The notes beneath the pieces are model-generated. The model searched no databases and had not been told where the DNA came from. It saw only the letters and a list, made by a program, of their open reading frames with translations. Of a stretch of DNA of 23,086 bases, positions 1,278-20,758 are shown piece after piece. How positions within the stretch are numbered: the first letter of the stretch is position 1; every line of letters starts with the position of its first letter. The stretch lies in the IMG/VR virus record IMGVR_UViG_3300044729_000111, positions 1 to 23,086 of that record; one strand, 5' to 3'. The position numbers were made by a program, and so were the translations under genes. The DNA is from a virus.

Positions 1278-1586
1278 TTACGCTAGTGAATCAATATCAA
1301 AATCATCAACCTTAACTTCAGTAGGTGCTACCGCAATCTGAGTTGATACATATTGTGACTCATATACTGCATCTAGGTGAGCCTCATTAATTAGTGCCCA
1401 TAGTTCAGCCTTGTTGAAAGATGCTGGTGTTTTCTCAGCCTCAACCTCTACCAACTTGTTGAACTTTGATACATAGTCATTAAGTGAGTACTCAACCTCT
1501 ACATCCCACTTGATTACCTTGCCATCAAGGTCAACTGTAGGAGTAGCCTTAGTGATTGTCTTTACTGCATTATCTGTATGTGACAT
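1278..1586 (-). CDS. hypothetical protein, 102 aa, downstream of fibre
   Basis: I do not recognise this family. The protein is 102 residues long and acidic. A beta-rich N-terminal half (TVDLDGKVIKWDVEVEYSL) is followed by a helical stretch rich in Glu and Ala, and the tail is acidic (VDDFDIDSLA). There is no membrane segment, signal peptide or cysteine cluster. Its ATG overlaps the stop codon of the fibre gene as TAATG, so translation is probably coupled to the fibre. A tail-fibre-associated or assembly role is possible from position only. Small tail-associated proteins in this position are common in phages, but no motif supports a specific function here. Confidence 0.7.
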   Translation of the reverse strand: MSHTDNAVKTITKATPTVDLDGKVIKWDVEVEYSLNDYVSKFNKLVEVEAEKTPASFNKAELWALINEAHLDAVYESQYVSTQIAVAPTEVKVDDFDIDSLA

Positions 1587-4500
1587 TAGTTTACCTTTGC
1601 TTCTAGTTCAGCGACCTTTGCTGAAAGTTCTTGTATTGCTTTGACTAGGATTGGGATTAGTCTACCCTGAGTTGCTTCTAGTTTTTCTGGATTATCGCGT
1701 AGGGTTAGTTGCAAGTACTCGGCAAGTTCTGCCTCGTCCTCTGTTGCCATAAGTTCTTGAGCAATAAAGCCTGTGTCCTTGATGCCAACCTTGGCTCCAT
1801 CACGCATATTCCAAGTAAATGTTACTGGGTTTAACTTGTTAATAAAGTCCAGACCAACTGGGATTGACTCAATGTCTGTCTTGTCACGGGCATCTGAAAG
1901 CCCAGAGATTGAAGTAACTTGACAGCGAAGACCAGATATAGATGAATTACCAAATGTAATTTGATTAGATACAGATGTTGTTGTTGCCTGAGCATTTGTT
2001 CCAAGGAGAATATTGTTTGTTCCAGTAGTGAGTGCGCTTCCTGCTTCACGACCAACTGCTACATTTTCACCACCTGTTGTAAGTGCATATAATGCGTTTT
2101 CTCCAGCGCCAACATTGTAACTTGCTGTTGTAAGAGATTGACCCGCTGATTTTCCAAGAAGGACATTGCGCTCACCACTTGTTGCACTTGTTCCAGCTTG
2201 CCAACCAACAGCCACATTGTTTACTCCGCTAACAGTAGTTGATAAAGCATTATGACCGATTGCTACGTTATTAATACCAGTAGTATTTGCATCAAGTGAA
2301 AATGCTCCAATGGCTATATTCCTATAACCAATTGAATTACCATACAAAGCATCGCGACCAATGGCTATGTTGTCAATACCTGTAGTATTAGAATATAAAG
2401 CACCAGGACCAACTGCTGTGTTATTAGTACCAATTGTATTGTTTTGTAAGGCTGCATATCCAACGGCTAAATTATCATCACCTGTTGTATTGCTTGTCAG
2501 TGCATTGTATCCTATTGCTGTGTTTACAAAACCATTTGTGTTGTTTCTCAATGCTTGATACCCGACTGCAGTATTATAGTAGCCAGTTCTATTTTCAAAT
2601 AATGCAAACCAGCCCATAACAGTATTGCCAGCGCCTGTGCTTGTATAATATCCAGCAGCACGACCTACGGCTGTGTTGCCAAAACCAGTTGTTTGAGAAC
2701 CAAGTGCTCCAGTTCCAACTGCTGTTGCATCATCTATTGTAGAAAATGATAGGGCACCCTGACCTACAGCAACAGAGTTGTTCCCTGTAACGTTGGTTGT
2801 TAATGCATTTTGTCCAATTGCTGTGTTGTTATAACCAGTTGTATTTGAGTACAAAGAATCTTTACCAAATGCCGCGTTAAGGTTGCCCGTTGTGTTTGAA
2901 AGCATAGACCCGTCGCCAACAGCAGTATTTATAATTCCAGTAGTATTGTTATACAATGATTGTCTGCCTATTGCAATATTTCCATAGCCAGTTGTATTGA
3001 TAGCAAGAGCATTAGTTCCAACAGCAACGTTTTCTCCACCAGTAGTGTTTGCAGTCAATGCATTATATCCAATAGCAACATTACTAGCGCCAACAGTATT
3101 AGCATCAAGTACAAAGGAACCAATTGCTACGTTGTTAACACCTGTTGTGTTAAGAAGTAATGTGTTCGAGCCAATAGATATATTATCAGTACCAACTGTA
3201 TTAGTAGCAAGAGAGTTTGTTCCAACAGCAACGTTTCTTACTCCTGTAGTATTGGAGGCAATAGCAGAATATCCGACTGCTACGTTTTCAGTTCCTACTG
3301 TATTTGCAGCAAGAGAATTAAATCCAACTGCTGTATTACTTGCTCCTGTTGTATTTAACGTAAGTGATAAACGACCAATTGCTGTATTTCCAGAGCCTAT
3401 AGTATTTGTAAGTAATGCTTGATGACCTACTGCTACGTTATCATTTCCAGTTATATTAGCACCTAATGCAGATTGACCAATTGCTGTATTTCTTGCTCCA
3501 ATGGTATTAGCATCAAGTACGCTATTTCCAACTGCAATATTTCCATCACCAACAGTATTGACTAAAAGCGCATTGACTCCAATAGCAACGTTATTAGCAC
3601 CTGTTGTGTTGGCAGCAAGAACGTTAGTACCTACACCAACGTTAGTTGATACTGTAGTAGGGTTAATAGTTGTTGTCCAGGATACCGCAGTGCCATCAGT
3701 TCCTAGTACCTTGCCACCATTGCCAGTCTGAGATGGGACTACATAACCAGCAGCCTCAGTCGCTGAGGCAGCAGCCGAAGTTGCAGAAGTCGCAGCAGCG
3801 GTAGCAGATGCAGCAGCGCTTGTCGCACTTGTAGCAGCAGCCGTTGCGGAAGCAGCGGCACTTGTAGCGCTAGTTGCTGCAGCGGTCTGGCTAGTCAAAG
3901 CAGATGAAGCAGAAGTCGCTGCGCTAGTAGCAGATGTTGCAGCAGCAGTTTGACTAGTTAGTGCAGATGATGCACTTGTAGATGCAGCGCTTGCAGAAAC
4001 GTCAGCAGATGTTGCCGATGTCGCCGCTGCTGTTGCACTAGATGCTGCTGAGTTAGCAGATGTTAAAGCACTCGAAGCGCTAGTAGAAGCAGATGCTGCA
4101 CTTGTTGCAGCAGCGGCTGCGTCTCCAACAATACTTGCTGCACTTGCAGCAGCACTAGTCGCTGATGTAGCAGCAGCGGTGGCTGAGGCTGCAGCAGAGG
4201 TTGCGCTAGTAGCGGCAGCCGTTGCAGAGTTGGCAGAAGAAGTTGCATATCCAGCAATTGTGGCTACAGAGTTTGCAGCAGTTGTGGCACTTGCTGCTGC
4301 GGATGTTGCCGATGTCGCTGCCGCGGTTGCGCTTGCTGCTGCGCTAGTTGCGCTAGTGGCTGCTGCTGTAGCAGAGGCTGCAGCCGATGTAGCAGAAGTT
4401 GCTGCTGCTGTGGCTGAAGTTGCTGAGGCTGTTGCAGATGTAGCAGATGCTGTTGCACTGTTAGATGCACTCGTTGCAGAAGTAGCAGCAGATGTAGCAC

Positions 4501-5254
4501 TAGTAGCAGCACTTGCTGCTGAGGTAGATGCTGCAGTTGCAGAACCTAAGATGCTGTCTACGTAATCCTTAGGGGTAGCAGATGATGCTGACATACCCGC
4601 AGAAGATAGTCCAGTAATAACTGGTGAGCCTGAGATAGTCGGGCTTGTTAAGGTTTTATTCGTAAGAGTCTGTACTGCCGTTGCAATAACCACTGTGCCT
4701 GTCGTGTTAGGCATTGTGATTGTATTATCCTGAGTTGGGTCGACCACTGTAAGGGTGGTCTCAAAGGCATCAGGTGTTGCACCTTCAAAGACAATGCTCG
4801 CATCTACATTCGTACCCGAAATAATAGGGTTCGTGATTGTAGGGGCTGTAAGGGTCTTGTTAGTCAGTGTCTGAGTGTCGATAGTTCCGACAACCGATGA
4901 AGAGTTTGAAATGCCGTGAACGCCCGTAGAAGCCTCAATATGGGCATTAGATTCACGGTAGTCGCGACCGATAGCCATGTGACGGACAACCGCACCAGCT
5001 GAGTGAGCCTGTCCTGAGGAACCATCAATGGCTCGGGTTATTGTAAAGGTATTAGTCGATACCGCAGTGGCATCAATAATTTCTTCAATTGCTGTATCTG
5101 GGTCAACAACAATTGTAAAGGTTGTACCCGCAGGAATCGACTGTCCACCCAGAAGGGCAGCACCTGACTGGACAACTAATGTTGAAGCGCCAGCGGTAAC
5201 CGCACTTGTTAGTGTTGTCTGTTGCGAGCGAGAGGAGTAATTGCGTGTTGTCAT
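1586..5254 (-). CDS. tail fibre with heptad stalk, YadA-like repeats and Peptidase S74 chaperone
   Basis: This is a 1222-residue host-recognition fibre. Residues 1-110 form a beta-rich, probably virion-attaching domain. Two TLTNKTLT motifs follow, near 130 and 195. Residues 238-502 are almost only Ala, Ser and Thr in about 38 heptads, consistent with a slender trimeric stalk. Residues 550-1092 hold 32 copies of a roughly 17-residue unit (consensus TTGxxNxAxGxxALxxN), resembling the left-handed beta-roll of YadA-type heads. From S1120 (context LSDARDK) to the end is a Peptidase S74 intramolecular chaperone: Ser1120/Lys1125 match the catalytic dyad, GFIAQE follows, and a coiled-coil end starts at LIPILVKAIQEL. 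Such domains trimerise the fibre and then cut themselves off before the serine. The start has an AGGA site (GATAGGAATATAA). Confidence 0.93.
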   Translation of the reverse strand: MTTRNYSSRSQQTTLTSAVTAGASTLVVQSGAALLGGQSIPAGTTFTIVVDPDTAIEEIIDATAVSTNTFTITRAIDGSSGQAHSAGAVVRHMAIGRDYRESNAHIEASTGVHGISNSSSVVGTIDTQTLTNKTLTAPTITNPIISGTNVDASIVFEGATPDAFETTLTVVDPTQDNTITMPNTTGTVVIATAVQTLTNKTLTSPTISGSPVITGLSSAGMSASSATPKDYVDSILGSATAASTSAASAATSATSAATSATSASNSATASATSATASATSATAAATSATSAAASATAAATSATSAAASATAAATSATSAAASATTAANSVATIAGYATSSANSATAAATSATSAAASATAAATSATSAAASAASIVGDAAAAATSAASASTSASSALTSANSAASSATAAATSATSADVSASAASTSASSALTSQTAAATSATSAATSASSALTSQTAAATSATSAAASATAAATSATSAAASATAAATSATSAAASATEAAGYVVPSQTGNGGKVLGTDGTAVSWTTTINPTTVSTNVGVGTNVLAANTTGANNVAIGVNALLVNTVGDGNIAVGNSVLDANTIGARNTAIGQSALGANITGNDNVAVGHQALLTNTIGSGNTAIGRLSLTLNTTGASNTAVGFNSLAANTVGTENVAVGYSAIASNTTGVRNVAVGTNSLATNTVGTDNISIGSNTLLLNTTGVNNVAIGSFVLDANTVGASNVAIGYNALTANTTGGENVAVGTNALAINTTGYGNIAIGRQSLYNNTTGIINTAVGDGSMLSNTTGNLNAAFGKDSLYSNTTGYNNTAIGQNALTTNVTGNNSVAVGQGALSFSTIDDATAVGTGALGSQTTGFGNTAVGRAAGYYTSTGAGNTVMGWFALFENRTGYYNTAVGYQALRNNTNGFVNTAIGYNALTSNTTGDDNLAVGYAALQNNTIGTNNTAVGPGALYSNTTGIDNIAIGRDALYGNSIGYRNIAIGAFSLDANTTGINNVAIGHNALSTTVSGVNNVAVGWQAGTSATSGERNVLLGKSAGQSLTTASYNVGAGENALYALTTGGENVAVGREAGSALTTGTNNILLGTNAQATTTSVSNQITFGNSSISGLRCQVTSISGLSDARDKTDIESIPVGLDFINKLNPVTFTWNMRDGAKVGIKDTGFIAQELMATEDEAELAEYLQLTLRDNPEKLEATQGRLIPILVKAIQELSAKVAELEAKVN
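1979..3607 (-). repeat. 32 tandem 51-bp units encoding 17-aa YadA-like repeats
   Basis: The fibre gene carries 32 consecutive units of about 51 bases (residues 550-1092), each coding one 17-residue turn with Gly at position 3, Asn at 6, small-hydrophobic-Gly at 8-10 and Asn at 17. Only three units depart from 17 residues (16, 18 and 16, near units 18-20). The units have diverged at DNA level but keep the protein pattern, which points to old duplication under selection for the fold. The register shift in units 18-20 could be a kink or junction in the beta-roll. Confidence 0.9.
3749..4543 (-). repeat. Ala/Ser/Thr heptad repeat of the fibre stalk
   Basis: About 795 bases code roughly 38 seven-residue units (typical AAATSATSAAASAT) with many near-identical 21- and 42-base copies. 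Small residues at every position suggest a tightly packed triple-helical or coiled-coil stalk. The DNA repeats are close enough to recombine, so length variation between isolates or assembly collapse is likely here. A brief interruption (VATIAGYATSSAN) breaks the pattern in the middle, and a second one (SIVGDAA) lies further on. Confidence 0.9.
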
Positions 5255-8278: not shown

Positions 8279-9481
8279 CTAGAGAGCAGCGATTGATGAA
8301 CCTGATGTGATTCGGAATAGAGCCTCATCACGGTATACTGCGAAGCCAAGTACGCCGTACCAACCCATTGGGCGGAAACGCATCAACTTATCAGTTACGT
8401 TACCGATAACTACGTGTGGTTCTTCAGCTACGGCTTCTGCCATTGCCTGTGCACCGCATACGATTGTATCGAATACGCGAGTTACTGGAGTTACAGTTAC
8501 TGTTGCTCCAACTGTTACTGCTGCAGTGTTTGCTGTGTCAACTGTGATAGTTGTTGTTGAGCCACTTGTTGCGATAGCAGTAATCTTTGCACCAGATGCG
8601 ATACCTGTTGCAGCAATCTTGTCGCCAACTTCAGCGCGAGATGCGATAACAGATGATGCAGCTACACCAATAGTGAATCCTGCTGATGTTCCTGCTACAG
8701 TTGCTGTTGTTGTTGCTAATGCTGACTGGTCTGCACCTGTCTTAGCATTGAACAAACGTGATGACTCTACGAAGAATGCGCCTTCGTACTCACCGATTTC
8801 TCCAGCCCAAATCTTGCTTGAGTTTTCAGCAGATTGTGCCTGTGGGTAGCGCCATCCAAGGTCGCCTGTCTCTGCACGAAGGTCGTGTGAAACTTCTGGG
8901 TGGATACCAACCCAGTATGCATTTCCGCGACGGCCCTTAGCCTTGTTAGAACGCAACTTCGCTACAGCACGACGAATGTCTGCTGAGTCTAGTGTATCTG
9001 CTGCATCAATTGTTGCAGTTGATGTTGCGTTGCCTGCGAAGATGTTGTTTGAACCTGAGCGTAGAGTTGTCATTGCAACTGAGTCGATAGAATCGGCTAG
9101 GTTGTAAGCAATGATGTTTGCGATTGCTGGGTCTACATCTGCTAGAGAGAATAGCTCCAATGCGCGTGTTACAAGTACAGCGTTACCGTACTCGTTAAGT
9201 GTTACAGTAACAGATGTTGGTGTTGACAATGCTACTGCATCTGGGTCAACTGTCTCTGTTAGTGTTGATGTCTTTGTGTCTAGGTCAACGTACTTCTGTA
9301 GAACTACAGTTGAACCTGGGATTGCTTGCTTTGCTGGGCGCTTATCTGCGACAGAACGAATTAGGGGTTCTGAACGGAGAGCGAACTCGAGAAGGCGGTC
9401 GTATGCCTTCTGTACGAGACCAGCACCGCCAACTGTACCACCGAGCGAACCGCTCGTGGTATCTGTATATGCGTTTGCCAT
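8279..9481 (-). CDS. major capsid protein (N4-gp56-like) with inserted domain
   Basis: This 400-residue protein is the main shell subunit. I recognise it from its resemblance to N4-gp56-family capsid proteins: residues 26-66 (YDRLLEFALRSEPL, then IPGSTVVLQKYVDL), TLTETVDPDAVAL near 73-85, VTLNEYGNAVLVT near 93-105, DPAIANIIAYNLADSID near 117-133, and a C-terminal section RFRPMGWYGVLGFAVYRDEA near 368-387. Between about 255 and 333 lies a Thr/Ala/Val/Gly-rich beta stretch (VGDKIAATGIASGAKITAI and following) interrupting the fold; it looks like an inserted surface domain. The start is firm, with AAGGAG ten bases before the ATG. The scaffold precedes it and a hairpin follows. There is no obvious N-terminal delta domain, which fits a separate scaffold. 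Confidence 0.92.
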   Translation of the reverse strand: MANAYTDTTSGSLGGTVGGAGLVQKAYDRLLEFALRSEPLIRSVADKRPAKQAIPGSTVVLQKYVDLDTKTSTLTETVDPDAVALSTPTSVTVTLNEYGNAVLVTRALELFSLADVDPAIANIIAYNLADSIDSVAMTTLRSGSNNIFAGNATSTATIDAADTLDSADIRRAVAKLRSNKAKGRRGNAYWVGIHPEVSHDLRAETGDLGWRYPQAQSAENSSKIWAGEIGEYEGAFFVESSRLFNAKTGADQSALATTTATVAGTSAGFTIGVAASSVIASRAEVGDKIAATGIASGAKITAIATSGSTTTITVDTANTAAVTVGATVTVTPVTRVFDTIVCGAQAMAEAVAEEPHVVIGNVTDKLMRFRPMGWYGVLGFAVYRDEALFRITSGSSIAAL

Positions 9482-9512: not shown

Positions 9513-9986
9513 TTATTGTTGTCCTTGCATCAGTGAGATTAACTCTTCCATAGAACTTGCATTGTCCATGCGCTGTTCTAGGTCCTGTGCTCGGTCTGGT
9601 GTAACGGCATTCTGTGTCATGACATCTTGCTGACGTAACGTCGCAAGGTTTTGTGTGTCAGGTTTCTGTGATACCTCTATACCAAATAGGTCAGCGTTCT
9701 CGTCTAGCCAGTTCGATACTGCCTCTTCTGAAAAATCACCATCTAAATCCTTGAGGACTAGACGTGCTGCCTTCTGGTTTACACCCTTCTTTTCTAGTAC
9801 TGACTTAACGGTAGACTCACGCTGCGACTTGGTAAATGTCTCAAGTTGCTCAGTAAGTTCCTTGATACGCTTTTCATCTGCACGCTTGGCTTTGCGTAAC
9901 TTTTTAAGTAAGTCACTGCCGTCCATTTGTGTATCTGTGTCGGTATCTTGGTCTTCGTCTTCGTCGTCCCAGTAGTTGTTGCTCAT
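9513..9986 (-). CDS. capsid scaffolding protein
   Basis: This 157-residue, highly charged protein directly precedes the major capsid gene, as scaffolds usually do. Residues 4-20 are almost all Asp/Glu (DDEDEDQDTDTDT). Residues 24-60 form a likely coiled coil (LLKKLRKAKRADEKRIKEL, then EQLETFTKSQR). The middle contains LEKKGVNQKAARLVLKDLDG, a pattern I recall from scaffolds of actinobacterial phages. The C-terminus ends in a helix (MEELISLMQGQQ) that may contact the capsid protein. It is expected to shape the procapsid and leave or be degraded before packaging. The ribosome site is GGGTGG upstream. The adjacent Ntn-hydrolase gene product could be its protease, but no cleavage site can be assigned. 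Confidence 0.82.
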   Translation of the reverse strand: MSNNYWDDEDEDQDTDTDTQMDGSDLLKKLRKAKRADEKRIKELTEQLETFTKSQRESTVKSVLEKKGVNQKAARLVLKDLDGDFSEEAVSNWLDENADLFGIEVSQKPDTQNLATLRQQDVMTQNAVTPDRAQDLEQRMDNASSMEELISLMQGQQ

Positions 9987-10103: not shown

Positions 10104-11489
10104 CTAGAATTGTCCTACGCTTGATGTCGTAAGACTTGTCTTGTTCGTGCCTGCTGCACCACTAAAGGATGCAATCTCACGTTGTGTAAGCTTCTGACGC
10201 TTACGTTGTGCTGATGCTAGGCTATTGAATACCTCTTGCTCAGCTTCTGTCTGGCCATAGCCTTCAAGAGTTGTGCCATAGATATCAGATAGTTTCTCAG
10301 CAGTTGGAAGGATGTCTGCAATAGTTGCGTAACCCTTCTGTGCTTCTGCCTGTGTAACACCCTGTGCTGCTAGTTGTTCAGCAACTGATACACCAGTCTG
10401 TAGTCCTTGACGTGCTGCTGCTACACCGATTTCAGATGCTGCAACCTGACGTTCAATCTTCTGGAACTGCTGGTTAGGGTCTAGTACATAAGCAACTAGG
10501 TCTGCTTGACCAATGCCATAGAAGTCACGTAATTGACGTGAGATAGCAGGGTCAGCATTCTGTACGCGCTGTACCGCTGTAACTACACGGTTAGAAAGTT
10601 CTGCTGCAGATACATCGTTAGCGATAAACTGAGATACATACTCATCAGTATCGAACTGCTTGAGTCCATATGCACGTAAAACCTGACGATATCCATCTTC
10701 AACATTAAGATACTCACCAGGATTAAGGACTGCTAAGCCCTTCTTAATACGTGCTTCATTGGCCTTAAAGCGTGTCTTGTACTCTTCTGTTTCTTGCAAG
10801 CCTAGTGTAATTGTGGCTTCAGTTGCACCATCAATTGCTAGTTCTTTAATTTTATTTACAAGGCTTCCTAAGCCATAACGCTGAAAGCGTTCAGTAAGAA
10901 CGTCAATAGCATTCTTACGAGTTGTTTCTGCTGCAGCTTTCTTCTCTGCTGCCGCTAGGTCTGCGGCTGTTTTGTTCGCATTGGAAAGGCTAGCAATCTG
11001 AGACTGTAAAGACTGTATTAAAGCAAGTACTGCAGGGTCAGTTATATTATTAACGACATTCTGTGGCGCCACATATGTTGGCGTAACAACTGGAACAGTT
11101 GCAGGTGTAGTAGTTTTGGTTGTGGTAACTACACCAGTTACTGGGTCAACAGTTGACTTAAATCCAGGTGCATTCTCATTAATAACCTTAGCAGTATTAG
11201 TTGCATTTTCGAATGCCGCTAATTGTGCAGAAGTTTTGCCAGTTGAGCCAACCTTTACTGTGTAGTAACGTGGGTCATCAATGCCTACTGGTCCGCTTAA
11301 GACTTCACTTACATTAGCAGCAGCGCTGACGCTTACTGGTACACCTAGTGCAATCTTTTCAGCATCAGTTAATGGTTGACCTGCTCCTAGTTTTCTAACA
11401 GCTGTCTGCATTTGTGCTGGGGTTAGTGTTGGGTTATTGGGTACAGCCCCGCCACCATCAATCATCTGTAATTCTGGATTGTATCTCAT
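10104..11489 (-). CDS. large virion-region protein of unknown function, 461 aa
   Basis: I do not recognise a named family. The N-terminal 150 residues are Thr/Pro/Val-rich and probably disordered. Near 155-200 lies a coiled coil (LALIQSLQSQIASLSN, then AADLAAAEKKAAAE). The rest is helical, with repeated aromatic-glycine helices (FQRYGLGSLVNKIKEL, YRQVLRAYGL and LRDFYGIGQADLVAYVLDP). I start at the ATG at 11489, which overlaps the previous stop as TAATG and has GGGG nine bases upstream. A TTG at 11504 would add five residues but would itself contain part of that ribosome site. Helical virion proteins lying before the scaffold could be part of an internal core or a minor tail assembly. It is probably co-translated with the two genes before it. 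Confidence 0.8.
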   Translation of the reverse strand: MRYNPELQMIDGGGAVPNNPTLTPAQMQTAVRKLGAGQPLTDAEKIALGVPVSVSAAANVSEVLSGPVGIDDPRYYTVKVGSTGKTSAQLAAFENATNTAKVINENAPGFKSTVDPVTGVVTTTKTTTPATVPVVTPTYVAPQNVVNNITDPAVLALIQSLQSQIASLSNANKTAADLAAAEKKAAAETTRKNAIDVLTERFQRYGLGSLVNKIKELAIDGATEATITLGLQETEEYKTRFKANEARIKKGLAVLNPGEYLNVEDGYRQVLRAYGLKQFDTDEYVSQFIANDVSAAELSNRVVTAVQRVQNADPAISRQLRDFYGIGQADLVAYVLDPNQQFQKIERQVAASEIGVAAARQGLQTGVSVAEQLAAQGVTQAEAQKGYATIADILPTAEKLSDIYGTTLEGYGQTEAEQEVFNSLASAQRKRQKLTQREIASFSGAAGTNKTSLTTSSVGQF

Positions 11490-12346
11490 TACATCAGACC
11501 CCAATCGCTGAAGACTTTAGTAGTTAAAGTATCAATAGTATTACGTGCGTTATTAGTATATGGCCAGTCAGGTGAACTCTTGACTGTCTTTTCAACCATC
11601 CATTGAGGCATAATCTCTTGCTTACCCGTAGTTGGATTTATGTAGTTCATAATTCTTTTAACTAAAGGATTCTGGAAGTCAACAGTATCTGGGTCTAATT
11701 CTAGTAAACTAGCCACAGAAGATGTTACGTTAGATGCGAGAGCAGATAGGGATACGTTGTTCTTAATACCTTCTGCATAGGCAGGATATGCACTAGCTGC
11801 AAGACCCTTAATATCATTCATGATATCATCTGTTGTAGTCTCACCAGCAAACAATGCTGTAGACTTTGTGTCCCAATATGCAGTGTTTAGTAGATTGCCA
11901 ACGCCGTAGGCATTAGCAAATGATTGCAATGCTGATACAGAACTCATGGTGCTTCCACCAAGTTTGCCCATACTGCCAGACTTGACAATCAACTGGTCGA
12001 CTTGGTCGTCGCTCATACCGCTTTGGTAACCAATTTCTACCTGCTTCTCAACGCCAGGTGTCCATTGTATACCCTGCTGAATCAAACGCTTCTTTGATTT
12101 TACCTTATAAGAATCTAAGTCTTGTGCATATACACCAGGCTGATTGGTTGCTGCAGTTTTTCTAGCACGAGCAATAGAGTTATTGCTTCGGTAGAAGGCG
12201 CTTCCTAAAACAAAAGAACGGAAACCGTCCATGTCTCCTTTAAGATACGCCTGCCATGCTTTTTCAAGGTCTGGGTCGGTAGCCTTGAGAGCAAGAATCA
12301 TTTGAAGTTGCTCTGCTACTGTAGCATCATTGTCGCTAATAGCCAT
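11489..12346 (-). CDS. virion-region protein of unknown function, 285 aa
   Basis: This 285-residue protein is mostly helical. It has a motif-like segment near residue 30 (WQAYLKGDMDGFRSFVLGS) followed by FYRSN and a basic stretch (ARARKTAATN, then YKVKSKKRLIQQGIQW). GYQSGMSDDQVDQLIVKSG near 128 and a central helical region follow; the end is TLTTKVFSDWGLM. I cannot name the family. Its ATG overlaps the stop of the 338-residue gene as TAATG, and its own stop overlaps the next ATG in the same way, so the three proteins are probably made in fixed ratio. GGGGGTCTATA precedes the ATG. A virion-interior role is inferred from context. Confidence 0.78.
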   Translation of the reverse strand: MAISDNDATVAEQLQMILALKATDPDLEKAWQAYLKGDMDGFRSFVLGSAFYRSNNSIARARKTAATNQPGVYAQDLDSYKVKSKKRLIQQGIQWTPGVEKQVEIGYQSGMSDDQVDQLIVKSGSMGKLGGSTMSSVSALQSFANAYGVGNLLNTAYWDTKSTALFAGETTTDDIMNDIKGLAASAYPAYAEGIKNNVSLSALASNVTSSVASLLELDPDTVDFQNPLVKRIMNYINPTTGKQEIMPQWMVEKTVKSSPDWPYTNNARNTIDTLTTKVFSDWGLM

Positions 12347-13362
12347 TATAGACCCCCAGACAGGATGCTAGTCATATCTTTCATAAACTCAAATCCCTTA
12401 CGGCGTTCATATTCCTCAGGGTTTGACTCCTTAAGTTTCTTTTCAACAATTGCTTCAGACGCTTCAGCGGTTAGACCAGGTGTAGTAACCTGTACATTTT
12501 CCATCTTGCCTGTCTTCGGATTCTTAACCTTTTTGTAGGTAGTAAGAGTACCAGTATTAGCCTTATTAAGTAAGTCGAATAGTTCCAACTTCGTGGCTTC
12601 GTCTAACTTCTGCCCAATCTTTGTAAGACCCCATTGTTCAATTGCATCGAAACTCTTAGCCTTATCTAACTGTGAGATAGAACGAGTAGGAAGAGTTGGC
12701 TCATCTCCCTTTACAGACTTTAATGAATCAGTCAGTAACTGAAGTGGAGTAATTTTCGGCCCACGGCCACCCTGGTAGATAGTTGCCGCAGTTGTTACTA
12801 GTTGTGACCATAGGCCATAAGCCTCAACGGGGCTGATAGTTTTGCCCTTGGCTGCATATGCACCAATAATTTTATTCTGTAAAGCCTGGTCATTCCAAAA
12901 ATCAGTAGCATAAGTTGATGCCAATTTTAATGTTGGAGTAACCGACGATACTGGCTTGCCATCTTTAAAGGTTAATCCTTTTGTAGGCTCATTTACTTCA
13001 CCTGTATATACAAATGCTGTAGTTCCAACTGCTCCTGCAGCCCATACAGATGGGTCATTTGTATCAAGACCAGTGGCTACTCTAAGGTCTGCTGCTAAAT
13101 CATCAGTAATACCAACAGGCGCATTTGGTGCAATGACTGGACCCTTAGGTAAAGGTCCTGGTTTATCAGACTTTGGTGGAGTCTTAGGTTTACCAGACAA
13201 CTGACGATTAATTTCAGTAAGTTCAGCACGGTCTTTCTTGGTTGCCTCTAATGATGCAATACGTTCTTTTGCAGTACTTGCGGTAACATCAACCTTAGAA
13301 GCAGCAGCAATCTTAGCCGTTAATTCTTTTTTACGTTTTAATAGTTCTTCTGTGGTTGCCAT
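12346..13362 (-). CDS. virion-region protein of unknown function, 338 aa
   Basis: This 338-residue protein begins with a Lys/Glu-rich coiled coil (EELLKRKKELTAKIAAAS, then a second helix ending in RQLSGKP), followed by a Pro/Lys-rich linker (PKTPPKSDKPGPLPKGP). The remainder is a mixed fold with ISPVEAYGLWSQLVTTAA near 175 and a long C-terminal helix (EASEAIVEKKLKESNPEEYE). I do not recognise it. It starts one base after the stop of the giant protein with AGGA upstream, and its stop makes TAATG with the next gene. The linker and coil suggest a bridging structural protein. No enzymatic motif is visible. Confidence 0.78.
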   Translation of the reverse strand: MATTEELLKRKKELTAKIAAASKVDVTASTAKERIASLEATKKDRAELTEINRQLSGKPKTPPKSDKPGPLPKGPVIAPNAPVGITDDLAADLRVATGLDTNDPSVWAAGAVGTTAFVYTGEVNEPTKGLTFKDGKPVSSVTPTLKLASTYATDFWNDQALQNKIIGAYAAKGKTISPVEAYGLWSQLVTTAATIYQGGRGPKITPLQLLTDSLKSVKGDEPTLPTRSISQLDKAKSFDAIEQWGLTKIGQKLDEATKLELFDLLNKANTGTLTTYKKVKNPKTGKMENVQVTTPGLTAEASEAIVEKKLKESNPEEYERRKGFEFMKDMTSILSGGL

Positions 13363-13363
13363 G

Positions 13364-16300
13364 TTATAGTCCTGAACCTAGGTATTTGTCATAGATTCTA
13401 TCCTGTGATAGGAATCTGTCATAGATATTAGCGAACTCTAAGTCACCAGCCTTAAGTTGGTTAACATAGTAGTCGAGAATTATACGCAAATCTATGTTCT
13501 CCTTAGCATCGATATTATTAGATGGTCGCCCACGTAGTCTTGCTGCAACTGCATCTCTTGCCTTCATGTATACAGCAACTGATTTCCATGTAGGGTCATC
13601 AGCGTTATCTGCCATAAACTTTTCATCAGCAAGAATCTTCTTGAATCCAATGATTGTCTTGGCACCCTTTGTGCCATCAACATCACGGTAATCTTGATAC
13701 CATGCACTAGGTGAGCCTGTTGGCTGACCTGTAACTGGGTCAATATCAGATGCTAGTTGCTTAACAATAGCCTGCTTTGCAGCAGCCAAGTCTTCAGCAC
13801 CTGCTTGTTGTAGTGATGTAAGTCCACGCTTATCAAGGTGTGCATCAAGAACTGCCATAGCACGGCGGTACTTAGCCCAACCCTCACGTGCAGCATTCTG
13901 TTGCTGTGCTTCTTGAGGGTCTTGCTTTCCACGGTACTTCTCAGGTGTTCCTGGTGCAATAGATGTCTCTGATTGCCACCAGTATGCTGTAGGATTATAC
14001 TTAGCAGCACCTGAACCCTTGGTAATTAAACCAACTAGGTATGAGTTGTCACCCTTTACATCAGCAATTAGGTCTGTGTAACGCTTAGCATTCTGGACAT
14101 CATCCATTGTAGCCTGTGAACCTGTAGGGTTCTTAGACAAAGATGTAGCAAATTCAAAGTACTCAGGGTAATCCTCAAGGAACTTAGCATCTGCACCTAG
14201 ACCAAAGGTCTGGCTATATTCACGCCACTTGTCCATGTAGAAACGGTAAGGGCTTTCAAATTGTGGGGCAAATGGTAGGATTAAGTTAGCCGCTACACGC
14301 ATCTTATAGAATGCGTCAGTCTTCTTCTTAATTTGTCCATCTGTCAAGTAAGCAGTTCCTGCTTCTTGTGCCTTCTGTTGTTCTGTTAGCCAGATGAGTT
14401 GATATGTCTTAGCATAGTCATCATTGTTGAGGCCTTGTACAGCCTTCAAAGAGTTACGCATCCATGTAGGAAGGAACTGAGTTAGTGATGCATCAGGTCC
14501 ATATGGGAATGCAAACGATACAACCTCAGATAGTTCTGGCTTTAACTTAAGAATATTTGCTACAGGAATAGCAGCAAATGGACCAACAGATACACCGAAT
14601 GGGTTACCTTGGAAGATAACATCGAGGCTTCGCTTGCTGATACCTATCTGGTCAAGGGACGATAAGCCCTCACCAATGACAGGAAGCTTCTTTAATGCGT
14701 TAGGTATAGGCAACCACATTGTATTGTTTGCACTCAATGGGTCTCTTGTGCCTACTGGCTCACCGTTTTCATCTGTAATAAGACCTGCACGGTTAGGTGC
14801 ATTCCATACAATGTTGGCACGGTTAAGAATAGCAGGGTTATCCATGCCAATTTTGAACCATGTCTTGATTGCATTTTCTTGTGCAGAGAAGAATGGCGAT
14901 ACAAAGCGTAACATATGTGCAGCATTTGAGCGACGTTCTACGTTATAAAGGATTCCCTTCACACCTTTAAGAGCATCTGCTCGTGCACCTGCAGTTAGGT
15001 TGTACTGTAGTTCAGCAAACTCTTCACGAGTGAATGTGCCACCCTTTAAGAACTCTGCTGTCTCAAGTCGCTTCTGAATTGACTTTTCGTATAGGTCAAT
15101 AAACAATGGGTGACGTGCCCAGTTGTCTTCAGGTATCTGTGCTAGATACTTAAACAATGATGATGTGATACGCCTAGAAATAGCACGTGGGCGTAGATTC
15201 ATATTAGCATCTAGTAAGTGACCATGCACGATAGGTAGCGCATTAGGGTCACGTACTGCATCACGTAGGAAATCTTCTGTTACTTTACCAGCTTCTTCTC
15301 CAGGAAGTGCTGACATAATCTTTTCACGAATACCATAGCCGTCAGGAATATAGTTATCCAAGAACTTCTGCGCTGTAACTACATACTCTAATGAGTCGGC
15401 ACGGGCAATGCCTAGACGTGCACGTAGCTCCTTGTTATCTGCTAGTTCTTTTGCTACCTCGTCGACACTCTTGCCAGCCATAAGTCCACGAGGAACTGCA
15501 GCATTGGCAAATGTCTCATTGATAGCATTTGTCCACTCTTGGTAGTAGTTGACATCTCCTGGACGCACAGCGCCACGGCCCTTACTCGCTACGTTTGCAC
15601 CGTAGATAGTAGAGTAGTCTTCAAGAAGTGAATAGAAAGTCTGTTGTGATGAGTTCAACTCACGGAATAGTCCACCATTAGGTCCGCCAAAGGCTCCCCA
15701 AATTGTGTACTTAGTTCCATCTGGGCTATCGACAGTTGATGTAAGTTCAATGTCCTGCTCACCAATACGCTTCTTACGTGAAGCAACCTTTGATTGCTCT
15801 AACTTAGTAAGTGCTACGTTGTTTGACTCGTAAGCTGCGTTTGCTGTATCTAGTGACTTTTGCTTTACAACTAATTCACCGATTAAATCTGCATTGTCTG
15901 GGTCTAATGATACACGTGCTTCAAGATTTGCAATTTCTTTTGACAGGCGTGCAATCTCTGAACCGCTCTTCTGTAAATCTTCTTTAAGAGCCTTGTAGTC
16001 TATCTTGGCTGGTGCGTTGTAGTTGTCAACCATACGGTTCTTAGCAGTTCTAGTATTATCTACTAGGTTTCTCATTCCCTCACCTGCGTGACGAAGGGAA
16101 GCCATAGCACCTACCGTAGCCCAGATACGTAGCTGCGAGTCGGCAGCGTTACGGATAGGGTATCCAAGGCGCAGAAGAACTGCAGCCTTCCAAAGGTCAG
16201 ATGTTAACGCAATCTTGTCATGAATGCTACCACCAACTGCACGAAGTGAACTTGCGTTTTGCTTAATGACTGCATCAATTGAGTCAAAATCTGCAATTGG

Positions 16301-17974
16301 TAAAAAGTTTGCTGTCTGAGATTCAAACAATGGTACTTTAATCATTTGATTAAGTTCATGGTCGTACAGGAATCCTTCTTCTTTGGATTCGCGTAATTTA
16401 CCAGAGCGCAATTGTGTGTGATATGAGTAAAGTTGTTCTGCGTCTTCTGCAGAAATACCGTTTTTTGCAGCAATGATTCTGTAGCCAGTCTGCTCTAGGT
16501 CATTAACGACACGAGCACGTGCTTCAGGTGTAGTTGCACGAGAGTAACGCTCTACATATGACAAGGCATCTTGAGTTGTAAAGGTACCAGTCTGCAAACG
16601 TGTTATAAATGCTGCACCTTTTGTAGGTACTGGCTTAGACAATGTAATCAAACGGTCTGTGACGGCTGTCACTTCGCGGATTGAGTCACCTTCGTTAAGA
16701 TTAATGACACCACTTGGACGTTCTTTTTGTCCCCAAGTTACCTTGTAGTACAATTTGTGGAACGGTGTTGGCTGATACATCGTAACTTTTGCATCGGCTA
16801 CAGCGTTTGAATGGTACGGAAGGCTATTAGCAGTAGCAATGAATCTTCCAGTTCCCTGGAATAATCCACCAGCGCCCTCTGTAAGAGCAGGTGTTTCAGA
16901 AACTCCTAGTAACGTGTCAACGTATCGGTCATGCTTTGCCCATGCGGAGATAAAATCTCTATCAGCCTGAATTTCTTCAGGTGTACGCAAAGCAAATTGT
17001 AGCATATCATCGGTTGTTGCATCAATTAATTTAGATTCTTCATTGAGTAAAACTTTGTAATCGCTCATTGTCATCTCGCCATTTGCAATACGCAACGGCG
17101 CTACAATGTCTGGACGCTTTAATTCATCAAGAATATCTATGCCACTCTTATCACCCATGACTGCAAGCATTGTGTTGATTGCTTCGTCTTTAGTAGCAGT
17201 TGTTCCAAGCAAGTATGAAACCGTAGCCTGATTATTACTACCCTTAACCCAAGGGTGGTTCTGTGCCCAAGCAATGTCATTGTTGGCAAAATCCTCAGCA
17301 AGTCTGCTGTACTTATCTGCCAACTTATTCTGTGTTGGAATGCCAGAGCGAACTTCACGAAGTGCAAGGATTGCATCCTTAGCAGAATCTGCAGCACGCT
17401 TAGCAGCAATATATTTTCCACCAATAATAGAAACATCGCCTGCAAACTGAGCAATTGTATCAATAGAACCAGATGCAACTCTACCCATTAGGCTGTTGGA
17501 GAATGCTTCTTCACGTTGCTTATCGTCGTAGATGTCAAAGTCAGAATCCATAAACTTTGGAGTTAAATCATCTGGCAAAAAAGACAAAGAGCTACCAAGT
17601 TGCGTAGACAACGCTTGACCAAAAGAAATTTCGTTACGTGCTTCCCATGCTTTTTTCCATGAGTCGCTGATACCCATGTTTGGGTCGCGTTGTGCAAAAA
17701 GTGTTACAGCAGAAAGAGGTTCACGAATAAGGTTGCGGTTAGTGGCTTCAATTGCGCCAAGAACTCCACCAAGTGGACGACCAATATTCTTAGCCAAGTC
17801 AATTGTGGATTGCTTTAATGTACCAAGAAAAGTATCATATTCTTTTCTATCGTTCCAACCTGCTGTTGCAATATCCCAGGCAAATTTTGCAGGAGATGCA
17901 ATTGCAAGACCGACGTCTAAACCCCAGTCTCTGGTTCCTTTTGCAAGGTCACCAATGCGGTTCCAGATATCCAT
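13364..17974 (-). CDS. giant virion-associated protein, 1536 aa (putative internal/ejection protein)
   Basis: This is the largest gene in the window. The N-terminus has amphipathic, weakly hydrophobic segments (WGLDVGLAIASPAKFAWDIA). Residues about 655-728 form a coiled coil (KSGSEIARLSKEIANLEAR and following). Near 1005-1040 lies RRSNAAHMLRFVSPFFSAQE, resembling the LPD38-type segment of large polyvalent phage proteins. The C-terminal 250 residues are polar and helical. No lysozyme, protease or polymerase motif is clear. Large proteins of this kind in podovirus-like phages are often carried inside the head and ejected with DNA. The alternative, a tape measure, is less likely: it lies before the capsid gene and has no tail-tube or chaperone genes around it. 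The ATG overlaps the upstream stop (TAATG) without an obvious ribosome site. Confidence 0.8.
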   Translation of the reverse strand: MDIWNRIGDLAKGTRDWGLDVGLAIASPAKFAWDIATAGWNDRKEYDTFLGTLKQSTIDLAKNIGRPLGGVLGAIEATNRNLIREPLSAVTLFAQRDPNMGISDSWKKAWEARNEISFGQALSTQLGSSLSFLPDDLTPKFMDSDFDIYDDKQREEAFSNSLMGRVASGSIDTIAQFAGDVSIIGGKYIAAKRAADSAKDAILALREVRSGIPTQNKLADKYSRLAEDFANNDIAWAQNHPWVKGSNNQATVSYLLGTTATKDEAINTMLAVMGDKSGIDILDELKRPDIVAPLRIANGEMTMSDYKVLLNEESKLIDATTDDMLQFALRTPEEIQADRDFISAWAKHDRYVDTLLGVSETPALTEGAGGLFQGTGRFIATANSLPYHSNAVADAKVTMYQPTPFHKLYYKVTWGQKERPSGVINLNEGDSIREVTAVTDRLITLSKPVPTKGAAFITRLQTGTFTTQDALSYVERYSRATTPEARARVVNDLEQTGYRIIAAKNGISAEDAEQLYSYHTQLRSGKLRESKEEGFLYDHELNQMIKVPLFESQTANFLPIADFDSIDAVIKQNASSLRAVGGSIHDKIALTSDLWKAAVLLRLGYPIRNAADSQLRIWATVGAMASLRHAGEGMRNLVDNTRTAKNRMVDNYNAPAKIDYKALKEDLQKSGSEIARLSKEIANLEARVSLDPDNADLIGELVVKQKSLDTANAAYESNNVALTKLEQSKVASRKKRIGEQDIELTSTVDSPDGTKYTIWGAFGGPNGGLFRELNSSQQTFYSLLEDYSTIYGANVASKGRGAVRPGDVNYYQEWTNAINETFANAAVPRGLMAGKSVDEVAKELADNKELRARLGIARADSLEYVVTAQKFLDNYIPDGYGIREKIMSALPGEEAGKVTEDFLRDAVRDPNALPIVHGHLLDANMNLRPRAISRRITSSLFKYLAQIPEDNWARHPLFIDLYEKSIQKRLETAEFLKGGTFTREEFAELQYNLTAGARADALKGVKGILYNVERRSNAAHMLRFVSPFFSAQENAIKTWFKIGMDNPAILNRANIVWNAPNRAGLITDENGEPVGTRDPLSANNTMWLPIPNALKKLPVIGEGLSSLDQIGISKRSLDVIFQGNPFGVSVGPFAAIPVANILKLKPELSEVVSFAFPYGPDASLTQFLPTWMRNSLKAVQGLNNDDYAKTYQLIWLTEQQKAQEAGTAYLTDGQIKKKTDAFYKMRVAANLILPFAPQFESPYRFYMDKWREYSQTFGLGADAKFLEDYPEYFEFATSLSKNPTGSQATMDDVQNAKRYTDLIADVKGDNSYLVGLITKGSGAAKYNPTAYWWQSETSIAPGTPEKYRGKQDPQEAQQQNAAREGWAKYRRAMAVLDAHLDKRGLTSLQQAGAEDLAAAKQAIVKQLASDIDPVTGQPTGSPSAWYQDYRDVDGTKGAKTIIGFKKILADEKFMADNADDPTWKSVAVYMKARDAVAARLRGRPSNNIDAKENIDLRIILDYYVNQLKAGDLEFANIYDRFLSQDRIYDKYLGSGL

Positions 17975-18423
17975 TAAATGCCATTCATCAAAATTGCTAA
18001 AGCACGACGCGTTTCTGCAGATGTATTTGGACGGGAAGCAATATAACTTAAAACTGGATAGTATGATGCGATGCTTTTATTGAACTCAGCATTGTTGTCT
18101 GCGTTGCTTGGAAGCATAAGCGCTTCTGAACCAGGACCTGCGCCCATATTAATACCAGCCATAATTGACTCGTCAGGGTTCATCGTTGGTTCTGTAAGAG
18201 GAACAATAGGTGGTTGCGATGGTGCGACGTCCATTGGGCGTGCAACAGTTGCAGCAACCTTAGCAAGAGGAGCTGCTGCTGCCTGCTCGTTGATTTGCTT
18301 GTTCATTCCATACGCATAACCTTGTGCTACGCGACCAGATTGACCTGCTCCACCAGTACCAGAAACATTAGTAGGACTATACTGTGGGCCACCATTGGCA
18401 CCACCACGATTTTCTACAGCCAT
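17974..18423 (-). CDS. hypothetical Gly/Ala/Pro-rich protein, 149 aa
   Basis: This 149-residue protein is low-complexity over its first 100 residues: Gly/Ser/Asn-rich (NRGGANGGPQYSPTNVSGTG), then Ala-rich, then Pro-rich (VAPSQPPIVPLTEPTMNP). A probable folded C-terminal segment (FNKSIASYYPVLSYIASRPN, then AETRRALAILMNGI) follows. I do not know the family. A strong TAGGAGGAAAC site precedes the ATG, and its TAG part is the stop codon of the Ntn-hydrolase gene, so the two are probably expressed together. It could be a substrate or tether of the protease, or a minor head protein; neither is shown. Confidence 0.7.
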   Translation of the reverse strand: MAVENRGGANGGPQYSPTNVSGTGGAGQSGRVAQGYAYGMNKQINEQAAAAPLAKVAATVARPMDVAPSQPPIVPLTEPTMNPDESIMAGINMGAGPGSEALMLPSNADNNAEFNKSIASYYPVLSYIASRPNTSAETRRALAILMNGI

Positions 18424-18431
18424 GTTTCCTC

Positions 18432-18977
18432 CTACTTAGTAAATTGCTCAAAGATATGAAACGGCGGAGCCGTCTCGTTATTATTAACTGCTGCAATTCT
18501 CATTGCATCTAGCATTGTAGTTCCTGCATGTAGTGCTCCAACTGCAAAGTCACCACCAGAACCAATACCATAAAATCCTGTGTTATTCATTCCAACTGAA
18601 AAATCAGAATCTATCTCAAAGATAGTTCCATTGATTCCTAGTAGAAGGTTTAATTCAAACTTATTATCATCATCATCTGATGTTTTATTAAAATCTACGC
18701 CTGCTTCAACAAGTGCTGCTTTAAGCGATGGCACTACTTTATTAATTGCAAACTCGTATAAGTTTGCTTTAGCCTTAACAGTAACTAGTGGAGGCGTCCA
18801 CCCGTGGAGTACCACTTGTAAACTACGATAGTTACCAGCACCAGAAATAATATAGCTTCCACGCTCAACTGCCTTTGTCATGTCAGGGTGGGTATAAACT
18901 TTTCCACCAGCGTTAATTCGACTGTCTACTACGATTACACATTTGTCTTCGTGTTGCACGCCGATAATCGTAGTCAT
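18432..18977 (-). CDS. HslV/proteasome-like Ntn-hydrolase, candidate prohead protease
   Basis: This 181-residue protein looks like a proteasome-beta/HslV-family threonine peptidase. The start MTTIIGV matches HslV (MTTIVSV); removal of Met would expose Thr as nucleophile. D18 (VVDSR) falls at mature position 17, as in HslV and proteasome subunits, and K35 (DMTKAV) falls one residue past the usual Lys33. ISGAG (44-48) and GIGSGGDFAVGAL (137-149) match the substrate-strand glycine and the Ser-Gly turn. An acidic insert (DDDD, 101-104) lies mid-protein. No partner ATPase (HslU, Mpa) is in the window. It starts 14 bases after the portal stop with an AGGAGGGGACA site, where a capsid-maturation protease is normally found, so cleavage of scaffold or capsid is the favoured role. 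Degradation of host proteins is an alternative. Confidence 0.85.
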   Translation of the reverse strand: MTTIIGVQHEDKCVIVVDSRINAGGKVYTHPDMTKAVERGSYIISGAGNYRSLQVVLHGWTPPLVTVKAKANLYEFAINKVVPSLKAALVEAGVDFNKTSDDDDNKFELNLLLGINGTIFEIDSDFSVGMNNTGFYGIGSGGDFAVGALHAGTTMLDAMRIAAVNNNETAPPFHIFEQFTK

Positions 18978-18991
18978 TGTCCCCTCCTATT

Positions 18992-20758
18992 TTATAGGCG
19001 TCGTGTTGAACGAACGCTTGCTGTTGGCTTTCCACCACCAGTAATACCTGATAGTAAGCTCATAATGTCTGGTGGTGCTGCCTCAATTTGAGGTGTAGCG
19101 CCTCCTGCTGGAACGCCAGCGGGAACAGGGGACGGTTGCTCAACCGCTTGTTGGGCTCCAGCAGGAGGAACTGGTTGCGGCTGCGGCGTAAAGACTTCTT
19201 CAATGACGTCCTCTAGTGCCTGTCCCTTTTGGCGTGCCTTAATGACAGCCGCAATCTGACGCACAACTTCAGAAGCGTCCTGGCCTTGCATAGCCATCTG
19301 TGGTATCGCTTGAGAGAGTGCATTAATGGAACCGAGAAGCGATGCTCGCATACTCTCGATTTCAATCTTTTCTACTTCTTGGGTTACGTTAACTGTAAAT
19401 GGAAGTTCACGCATTGCCATATCCTTGGAGATGAGTCCACCACCAAGTGCTTGCAACATAAAGATAAGTCCCTGTGCAGGATTAAGTCCTGCCAACATAC
19501 CGTAGCGGACATCGGCTGAGTAGTCGCCCTTGATGTCCTTCTTAGGAGCGTATGTGATTTCGTATGGTGAACCTGAATCTACACCACGGATTGTCTTTTC
19601 ATCTGGAAAAATTAATTCATCAACTTGGAAACAAAGTTGGATTACATCGCGCAGTGCTGATGCAAAAATTGCTTGTGCTGACTTGACCTGTGTATCGAAG
19701 GCTCCCATAAGAGCCTGTACACCTTGGCCAGTAACAACTGATGCGCTGATGTTTCCTGTACGTGATTCAGGGTAACGTGTACCAACACGTAATTCTTGAC
19801 CAAGCAATGTCTGCTCAGTAAATGCACCTGGTGGAATATTAAGTTCTACGCGGCGGACGCCTGCTGGGTTCGCTGTACGAATAACAGCGTCGCCACCAAG
19901 CTGCAACTCTTGTACATCTTGTGGAAGTACAATAGGAGCTTGTACAGATTTCTCTGCAGCTTCCATTGCAAGCAATGCAAAGCGATTGCGAAGCAACTGG
20001 ATTCCAAGGACGTCGTCAAATTGTCCACGTAGTTCATCATCAATAGATGGCTTACGGGCTACTACAACCATCATCTTACCCAATGGATTTGTAGCACGTG
20101 ATAGTACTAAGTTATTCTTTGTAGGGATGTAGATGATTGATTGGTCTTTGTCGTAGTAACGAATCATTTCAACCTGAGTATTTAAGTCTTGCTTGTAGCC
20201 AAAGCCACCTAGCAAGGAGTACTCGTACTCAGGATATAATGCGACTAACTCAGCCAAAGATGTCATGTAGCGTTTTGCAAAGGCAATGCAGCGTCCGTAG
20301 CGGTCGAATTCTGGGTAAGCACCCACAGGGTTTTCTAGGCGGATGCGCGGCAACTTTGCTTCCTCATCCATTTCAATAAAGAATGGGAGGAAACCGTAAG
20401 TGATATACCAGTCTGCACCTTGGTACATGTGTACTGCAAGGTCAGAGTGTGAAAAATAATTAGAGGCGATACGTGTACGCTTGTCAGCAAACGAACGTGC
20501 TCTATCTGAAACAGAGTTGGCAGCCGAACAGTTGACCGCAGGTAGCGGTGCCATAACTTCTGACAGGTCGCTTGCGACAACGTCAATAAAGTTTGCAACT
20601 ACGTTAGCATCTACACCGTCTGGAAAGAAGTCAGGATAGACAGATGCAATGTTACCCTTGCGGACCGAAAGAACGTCGAGGTTGCGACCGTCGCGTTCAG
20701 CGTTGCGGAAGCGAAGGTTCTCGACTCTCGCCGCAACTTGTTCGATTGATAATGCCAT
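18992..20758 (-). CDS. portal protein
   Basis: This 588-residue protein would form the dodecameric ring at the special vertex through which DNA enters and leaves. The size, position after the terminase, and sequence pattern support this: an N-terminal helical region, a beta-rich wing with YQGADWYITYGFLPFFIEMD near 110-130 and NPVGAYPEFDRYGRCIAFAK near 145-165, a central MRYYDKDQS-type strand region, GNISASVVTGQGVQALMGAF near 350 and long helices afterward. The C-terminal 75 residues are Pro/Gln/Ala-rich (PQPQPVPPAGAQQ) and probably disordered; they may contact the internal proteins. TTAGGATAAC precedes the ATG. It is followed after 14 bases by the Ntn-hydrolase gene. Confidence 0.88.
   Translation of the reverse strand: MALSIEQVAARVENLRFRNAERDGRNLDVLSVRKGNIASVYPDFFPDGVDANVVANFIDVVASDLSEVMAPLPAVNCSAANSVSDRARSFADKRTRIASNYFSHSDLAVHMYQGADWYITYGFLPFFIEMDEEAKLPRIRLENPVGAYPEFDRYGRCIAFAKRYMTSLAELVALYPEYEYSLLGGFGYKQDLNTQVEMIRYYDKDQSIIYIPTKNNLVLSRATNPLGKMMVVVARKPSIDDELRGQFDDVLGIQLLRNRFALLAMEAAEKSVQAPIVLPQDVQELQLGGDAVIRTANPAGVRRVELNIPPGAFTEQTLLGQELRVGTRYPESRTGNISASVVTGQGVQALMGAFDTQVKSAQAIFASALRDVIQLCFQVDELIFPDEKTIRGVDSGSPYEITYAPKKDIKGDYSADVRYGMLAGLNPAQGLIFMLQALGGGLISKDMAMRELPFTVNVTQEVEKIEIESMRASLLGSINALSQAIPQMAMQGQDASEVVRQIAAVIKARQKGQALEDVIEEVFTPQPQPVPPAGAQQAVEQPSPVPAGVPAGGATPQIEAAPPDIMSLLSGITGGGKPTASVRSTRRL

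Follow-up and report, generated by a model that had tools for sequence, protein, structure and literature searches.

Two of the closest described systems are bacterial. BPH, the beta-proteobacterial proteasome homologue (PDB 5ovs, 5ovt and 5ovu), is an ATPase-free tetradecameric double ring whose pore loop, lying between H2 and S7, is elongated and highly acidic, and in published work it was inactive on standard substrates (PMC5777263). In HslV (ClpQ), which works with the partner HslU, a short linker stands in place of this loop, and the pore has a basic entrance (PMC5777263). Phage-borne proteasome homologues have already been described by Fuchs, Alva and Lupas in 2021 (PMC8665760) under the names PPH and AAH, both small group-I proteasome homologues of tailed phages without a propeptide; PPH has ∼140 residues and is without helix H2, and the authors found AAH in no actinobacterial phage. 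The superfamily also includes a monomeric ligase, connectase (PMC8665760). We found no paper assigning a function to a phage proteasome-like ring, and literature searches on phage HslV function, virion proteomics and prohead Ntn hydrolases likewise returned no paper.

The window analysed here is a stretch of 23,086 nt of a viral record (IMGVR_UViG_3300044729_000111), and the gene of interest is the 181-aa frame listed first in Table 1. An earlier note on this DNA had placed an HslV/proteasome-type threonine protease directly after the portal gene and had pointed to an M-T-T start, D18, K35 and a GSGG turn. All of these are found in the minus-strand translation, with GSGGD at residues 139–143, and the protease start lies 14 bases beyond the portal stop; the plus-strand reading of 18432–18977 has stops throughout and was rejected. 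In mature numbering after removal of Met the triad becomes Thr1, Asp17 and Lys34, the Lys standing one residue beyond Lys33 of HslV. The next gene starts 8 bases past the protease stop and also has its own AGGAGG. In the protease region no consensus promoter was seen in excess of shuffled sequences. No clear promoter was seen between portal and protease, so that co-transcription of the protease with the head genes is probable; the order of transcription is terminase, a small protein, portal, protease, a 149-aa protein, a 1536-aa giant, three further proteins, a scaffold-type protein and capsid.

Table 1. Features of the protease gene and the surrounding head module in the window
Feature	Coordinates	Strand	Basis or remark
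HslV/BPH-like Ntn threonine peptidase, 181 aa	18432..18977	(-)	ATG start; profile, model and fold matches
AGGAGG ribosome-binding site of the protease gene	18983..18988	(-)	sequence, a few bases 5′ of the ATG
Thr2 codon, predicted nucleophile (Thr1 once Met is removed)	18972..18974	(-)	T in 121/125, S in 4/125 distinct relatives
Asp18 codon (triad Asp17)	18924..18926	(-)	125/125 distinct relatives
Lys35 codon (Lys33 equivalent)	18873..18875	(-)	124/125 distinct relatives; Asn once (L056)
DDDD, residues 101–104, BPH pore-loop position	18666..18677	(-)	predicted secondary structure, BPH paper, loop acidity among relatives
GSGGD turn, residues 139–143	18549..18563	(-)	GSGG nearly invariant in alignments A1–A3
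Terminase large subunit, 622 aa	20974..22842	(-)	phrog_38, 3.6e-66
Portal protein, 588 aa, directly upstream of protease	18992..20758	(-)	phrog_104, 2.4e-31; 41% to Beephvirinae portals
149-aa protein, FlowerPower gp7 orthologue, far edge of slot	17974..18423	(-)	phrog_8200
Giant protein, 1536 aa, FlowerPower gp9 orthologue	13364..17974	(-)	phrog_10618
Scaffold-type protein, 157 aa, acidic N-terminus	9513..9986	(-)	phrog_7813; weak match to phrog_648, head scaffolding
Major capsid protein, 400 aa, without long N-terminal delta domain	8279..9481	(-)	phrog_1357, 4.9e-77

The assignment to an HslV/proteasome-type Ntn threonine hydrolase was borne out by profiles and by fold. Against PHROG the protein matched phrog_1040 (‘peptidase HslV family’) over its full length with E = 7.6e-23; the Pfam Proteasome score was 18.2 bits, under the cut-off of 22.4, and a family call from Pfam alone was rejected for this reason. 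A profile built from 44 relatives placed BPH at the top of the PDB (5ovu, 1.2e-9; 5ovs, 7e-9) and HslV next (4e-8). With the same 44 relatives the AlphaFold2 monomer model reached pLDDT 92 and pTM 0.88, superseding a run with 16 alignment rows (pLDDT 66), and the model contains helices at 50–59 and at 73–91. A Foldseek search with this model had Thiobacillus BPH as its top match (E = 3e-10), with HslV second and 20S beta and Anbu next, which answers the concern that a structural match to Ntn hydrolases might be lacking; the TM score with BPH chains 5ovs_J and 5ovt_A was 0.73. More than 1000 PDB matches had E <0.001, the best 50 of which were all BPH, HslV, Anbu or 20S proteasome, and the top match among predicted viral proteins was a phage protein named HslV. 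Moreover, the predicted triad is kept throughout an alignment of 125 distinct relatives, with Thr or Ser at position 2 in all 125, Asp18 in all 125 and Lys35 in 124, so that the loss of Thr2 among homologues, which would have spoken against this assignment, was not seen. The gene product belongs to the proteasome-like (Ntn, T1) superfamily and is closest to BPH in sequence and fold.

Two individual loci depart from this pattern. At L056 (10001–10543) Asn stands in place of the catalytic Lys35 while the near sister L055 has Lys, reflecting either a sequencing error or a dead enzyme, and at L020 (1002–1544) an in-frame stop follows residue 52 of the protease, in a locus that is normal in other respects.

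The earlier note had also regarded an acidic DDDD insert as a difference from HslV. The insert is present and does set the protein apart from HslV, but it is not a new feature, because the acidic pore loop of BPH occupies the same place (PMC5777263); the idea of an acidic insert peculiar to the window protein, BPH having the same position and charge, was rejected. In the model, residues 101–104 fall in the loop that leads from the long second helix (73–91) to a strand starting at 109, and the corresponding loop has a median of 4 D/E in 15 residues across 302 portal-located relatives. DDDD at the pore-loop position thus points to BPH and to an ATPase-free barrel. Taken together, the fold, the profile ranking and the acidic pore loop make BPH the closest solved relative.

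In comparison with BPH, the window protein has the same Thr-Asp-Lys triad, an acidic pore loop and no partner ATPase, but the two are only ∼19% identical, and the window protein is phage-encoded, with a shorter pore loop and another gene context; BPH is a tetradecamer, and the window protein was modelled as a monomer. HslV, the second-best match, shares fold, triad, GSGG turn and TT start, yet its pore loop is very short and it works with HslU, to which nothing similar was seen here: no HslU-like AAA_2 ATPase (PF07724) was detected in 16 related phage genomes, the control being matched in all 14 genomes, in agreement with the earlier description of a protease without any ATPase. The HslV equivalog cut-off of NCBIfam was not reached either (20.5 bits versus 157.75). 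Like PPH and AAH, the window protein is a small group-I homologue that has no propeptide and comes from a tailed phage; unlike PPH (PMC8665760), it has 181 residues and a predicted H2, and, as judged from its sequence, it is neither a PPH nor, by the curated cut-off, an HslV. Other members of phrog_1040, for example that of phAPEC8, adjoin PhoH and methyltransferase genes, in contrast to the window gene, which adjoins the portal. A genome scan with a single search pattern yielded 7 bacterial loci, mostly proteobacterial together with a planctomycete, and BPH-like; the protease matches BPH best by profile in the PDB, and the protease tree has long branches.

The nearest cultured relatives of the head module are the Beephvirinae, Streptomyces podophages such as FlowerPower, Immanuel3 and Manuel, whose terminase, portal, gp7, giant, gp13 and capsid genes stand in the same order, with portals 41% identical and capsids 52–55% identical over 70% of the length. 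Unlike the window, they have no protease of the BPH/HslV kind, whether in the slot or elsewhere in the genome, and NlpC/P60 and SLT domains occur in their internal proteins gp11 and gp12. The interval between portal and gp7 holds three small genes (52, 69 and 71 aa in FlowerPower). Among 61 distinct portal loci of the Beephvirinae type with sufficient sequence, distinct here and below meaning after removal of identical portal ends, 0 had the protease in the slot, and it was found anywhere in 0 of 16 Beephvirinae records of 40–47 kb, for which the positive control OX376640 was matched. The Beephvirinae member Abafar forms infectious podoviral particles (PMC11536984).

Within the window's own clade, distinct loci retrieved by their portal and long enough to judge have the protease in the slot in 102 of 109 cases and lack it in 7, counts to be read with the fact that the relatives are nearly all metagenomic contigs, many incomplete, and that loci are not independent. 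On the portal tree, a quick tree with SH-aLRT support only, these absences require four changes, which well-supported branches force and of which at least three are nested losses. In the gene-free records of this clade, which are fragments, the protease was not found elsewhere, and the longest of them (G004, 30.5 kb) spans both known positions of the gene, described below, and has it at neither. The capsid N-terminus is alike with and without the protease (...YTDT..LGGTVGGAGLVQKAYDRLLEFALRSEPLIRSVADKRP) and the scaffold has 157–158 aa in both cases; accordingly, the proposal that capsid or scaffold changes with protease presence was rejected. Family profiles of prohead proteases gave no match in related records (S78, 0/33; ClpP-like S14, 0/34; S49, 0/18), a result that covers these three families. 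A standard serine prohead protease of the S78, ClpP or S49 kind elsewhere in the genome, which would have weakened the earlier proposal, was therefore not encountered among related genomes. A substitute protease where the gene is missing was likewise rejected, as no S78, ClpP or S49 match was obtained and small proteins fill the slot.

Two kinds of small protein were observed at the slot. One, with a basic N-terminus and an acidic C-terminus, occurs only where the protease is missing, in 8 loci (L111, L134, L220–L223, L235 and L260), and never together with it (278 loci). The other is acidic, carries the motif WVLISEWADYEGNRFLHTEVSEAMTPWNA and lies between the protease and the 149-aa gene in 95 loci (L062, L101, L106 and others); it also occurs without the protease in L127 and L138.

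A second position of the gene was found in a sister clade. The protease type of query L270 stands behind the portal in 72 loci, and in 7 further loci an 84–88% identical gene has no portal of the family nearby; in those L270-type loci without a portal that have enough flanking sequence, the protease is flanked by a CHAP endolysin and an exonuclease. Among sister-clade records retrieved by their terminase, the protease was behind the portal in 0 of 35 portal loci with room for it, and in each of the five records of at least 33 kb a single protease copy stands at a distance from the portal, with the lysis genes on one side and a PD-(D/E)XK exonuclease on the other; a WhiB-like protein and a DnaB-like helicase come after the exonuclease. 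At the same lysis/exonuclease junction in the window's clade the protease is missing (L434). The protease is single-copy in 35 of 36 records, and this, together with the two positions, indicates an enzyme kept at one per genome while its position changes.

Homologues in other phages show a similar independence of head genes. The homologue lies among small genes beside a WhiB regulator in DSL-LC01, after ThyX and MazG in Pumpernickel, after PhoH and before the methyltransferase in phAPEC8, amid small genes at the end of the genome in Arthrobacter phage Hum25, and between thymidylate synthase (DHFR/ThyA) and RNase H in AAS21; in none of these five is it directly beside head genes. The question raised earlier, whether homologues always neighbour portal genes, is hence answered in the negative, the sister clade having the gene at the replication end and other phages beside nucleotide-metabolism or early genes. 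WhiB was present in 19 of 20 freshwater phage records. From DSL-LC01 (lake water), the kinship with Beephvirinae and WhiB, rather than from the window's record, we infer actinobacterial hosts and a freshwater habitat.

Selection on the protease was compared with that on its neighbours in the same genome pairs. Median dN/dS was 0.12 for the protease, 0.10 for the portal and 0.37 for the following 149-aa gene, and values for the protease within a type were 0.12–0.14 with no sign of positive selection. On these values, the protease is constrained within a type like a structural protein. Between types the pattern is different: at portal identities of 80–85% the median protease identity is 41%, and at L102 a portal 88% identical is accompanied by a protease only 31% identical. 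On the protease tree, which has long branches and SH-aLRT support only, the portal-located genes require at least three changes of place. Protease divergence far beyond that of the portal, combined with these changes of place, indicates that several enzyme lineages entered the slot or replaced each other in it.

What is observed, then, is that the protease is not bound to a place in the head module and that the head module exists without the protease; on account of Beephvirinae, of the nested losses in the window's clade and of the sister clade, we rejected the gene as an invariable part of the head module. The capsid-maturation (prohead) role proposed earlier is not upheld, since the gene is missing from relatives whose portal, scaffold and capsid are the same, and the sister clade has it elsewhere. 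Of the properties expected of a prohead protease, a location between portal and capsid genes was found (in 102 of the 109 distinct loci of the window's clade), but constant presence with its capsid was not. Relatives with the same capsid and scaffold that lack the gene or carry it elsewhere make it probable that this is an accessory infection enzyme. On balance we lean, with slightly better than even confidence, to an accessory self-compartmentalising peptidase of actinobacterial phages, kept by selection and exchanged between lineages. As the predicted fold would have it (triad, acidic pore loop and both of the helix pairs that a stacked ring requires), the protease would assemble into an ATPase-independent double ring, whose chamber would admit unfolded segments or peptides; acting inside the infected cell, it might digest or trim proteins of the host or of the phage, either at takeover or late in infection. 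The gene of the window's clade would have moved behind the portal into the late operon and would be co-translated with head genes while being unneeded for head maturation. Against this reading stand the slot occupancy of 102/109 and the presence of at least three protease lineages there, which suggest that late expression or the location itself brings some advantage, as well as the published inactivity of BPH on standard substrates. This same filling of one slot by several lineages is the reason for keeping in play a facultative action on the scaffold or on ejection proteins, in which the enzyme would enter the procapsid and digest scaffold or trim head or ejection proteins, gene-free relatives releasing their scaffold intact, as the scaffold of P22-type phages leaves intact. 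Such a role would suit a gene directly behind the portal and co-directional with the head genes, a slot kept in 102 of 109 portal loci, and related genomes in which no S78, ClpP or S49 protease was detected. We nevertheless regard it as unlikely, because capsid N-terminus and scaffold length are the same with or without the gene, a long N-terminal delta domain is absent from the capsid protein, infectious virions are formed in Beephvirinae (Abafar, PMC11536984) although their records lack the gene, and the 84–88% identical enzyme of the sister clade is encoded far from head genes. Its most specific form, at least three recruitments of an ATPase-free double ring of the BPH type into the late head operon, digesting scaffold or ejection proteins in a dispensable threonine-protease head maturation, seems to us somewhat more doubtful still.

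The remaining explanations separate mainly by gene position and selection. Allele replacement behind conserved portals and early-region placement in the sister clade and other phages would be natural for a protease serving counter-defence or host shut-off by destroying particular proteins of the host, its alleles being swapped in an arms race; the low dN/dS within a type (0.12–0.14), with no sign of positive selection, argues against this, and we give it only a small chance. A protease packaged via the portal region and injected for early action could account for a gene between the portal and the giant, probably ejected, proteins, but as the sister clade encodes the enzyme outside the structural operon, we hold this to be improbable. 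Membership in a superfamily that includes connectase (PMC8665760) raises the thought of a protein ligase or processing enzyme instead of a degrading protease; both helix pairs are predicted, however, the large insertion of the connectase kind between the early strands is absent, and the nearest fold is BPH, which leaves this reading very improbable indeed.

Phage proteasome homologues were known before (PMC8665760), and what is new is this phage lineage, the BPH-like form and the distribution over two places. The data fill a gap stated in that work, proteasome homologues in phages of actinobacteria, and provide phage relatives of BPH for study. Moreover, an abundant lineage with conserved catalytic residues, two gene positions and gene-free relatives with the same capsid offers a natural comparison for function.

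Some further differences were noted in the structural genes. The capsid protein (window 8279–9481; L435 13917–14867) has ∼400 aa in most of the window's clade, 317 aa in L138/G004 and ∼321 in Beephvirinae, the extra stretch being a Thr/Ala/Val-rich insert near residues 255–340. In Beephvirinae the internal proteins gp11 and gp12 have a shared domain joined to the NlpC/P60 and SLT cell-wall enzymes, and their 285-aa counterpart in the window has the shared domain only (window 11489–13362; L066 12173–14767). At 1586–5254 the window encodes a 1222-aa tail-fibre-like protein with long Ser/Ala/Thr repeats followed by many NTTG-NNxAxG repeats, and its terminal domain opens with SDARDK, like the intramolecular-chaperone tails of phage fibres.
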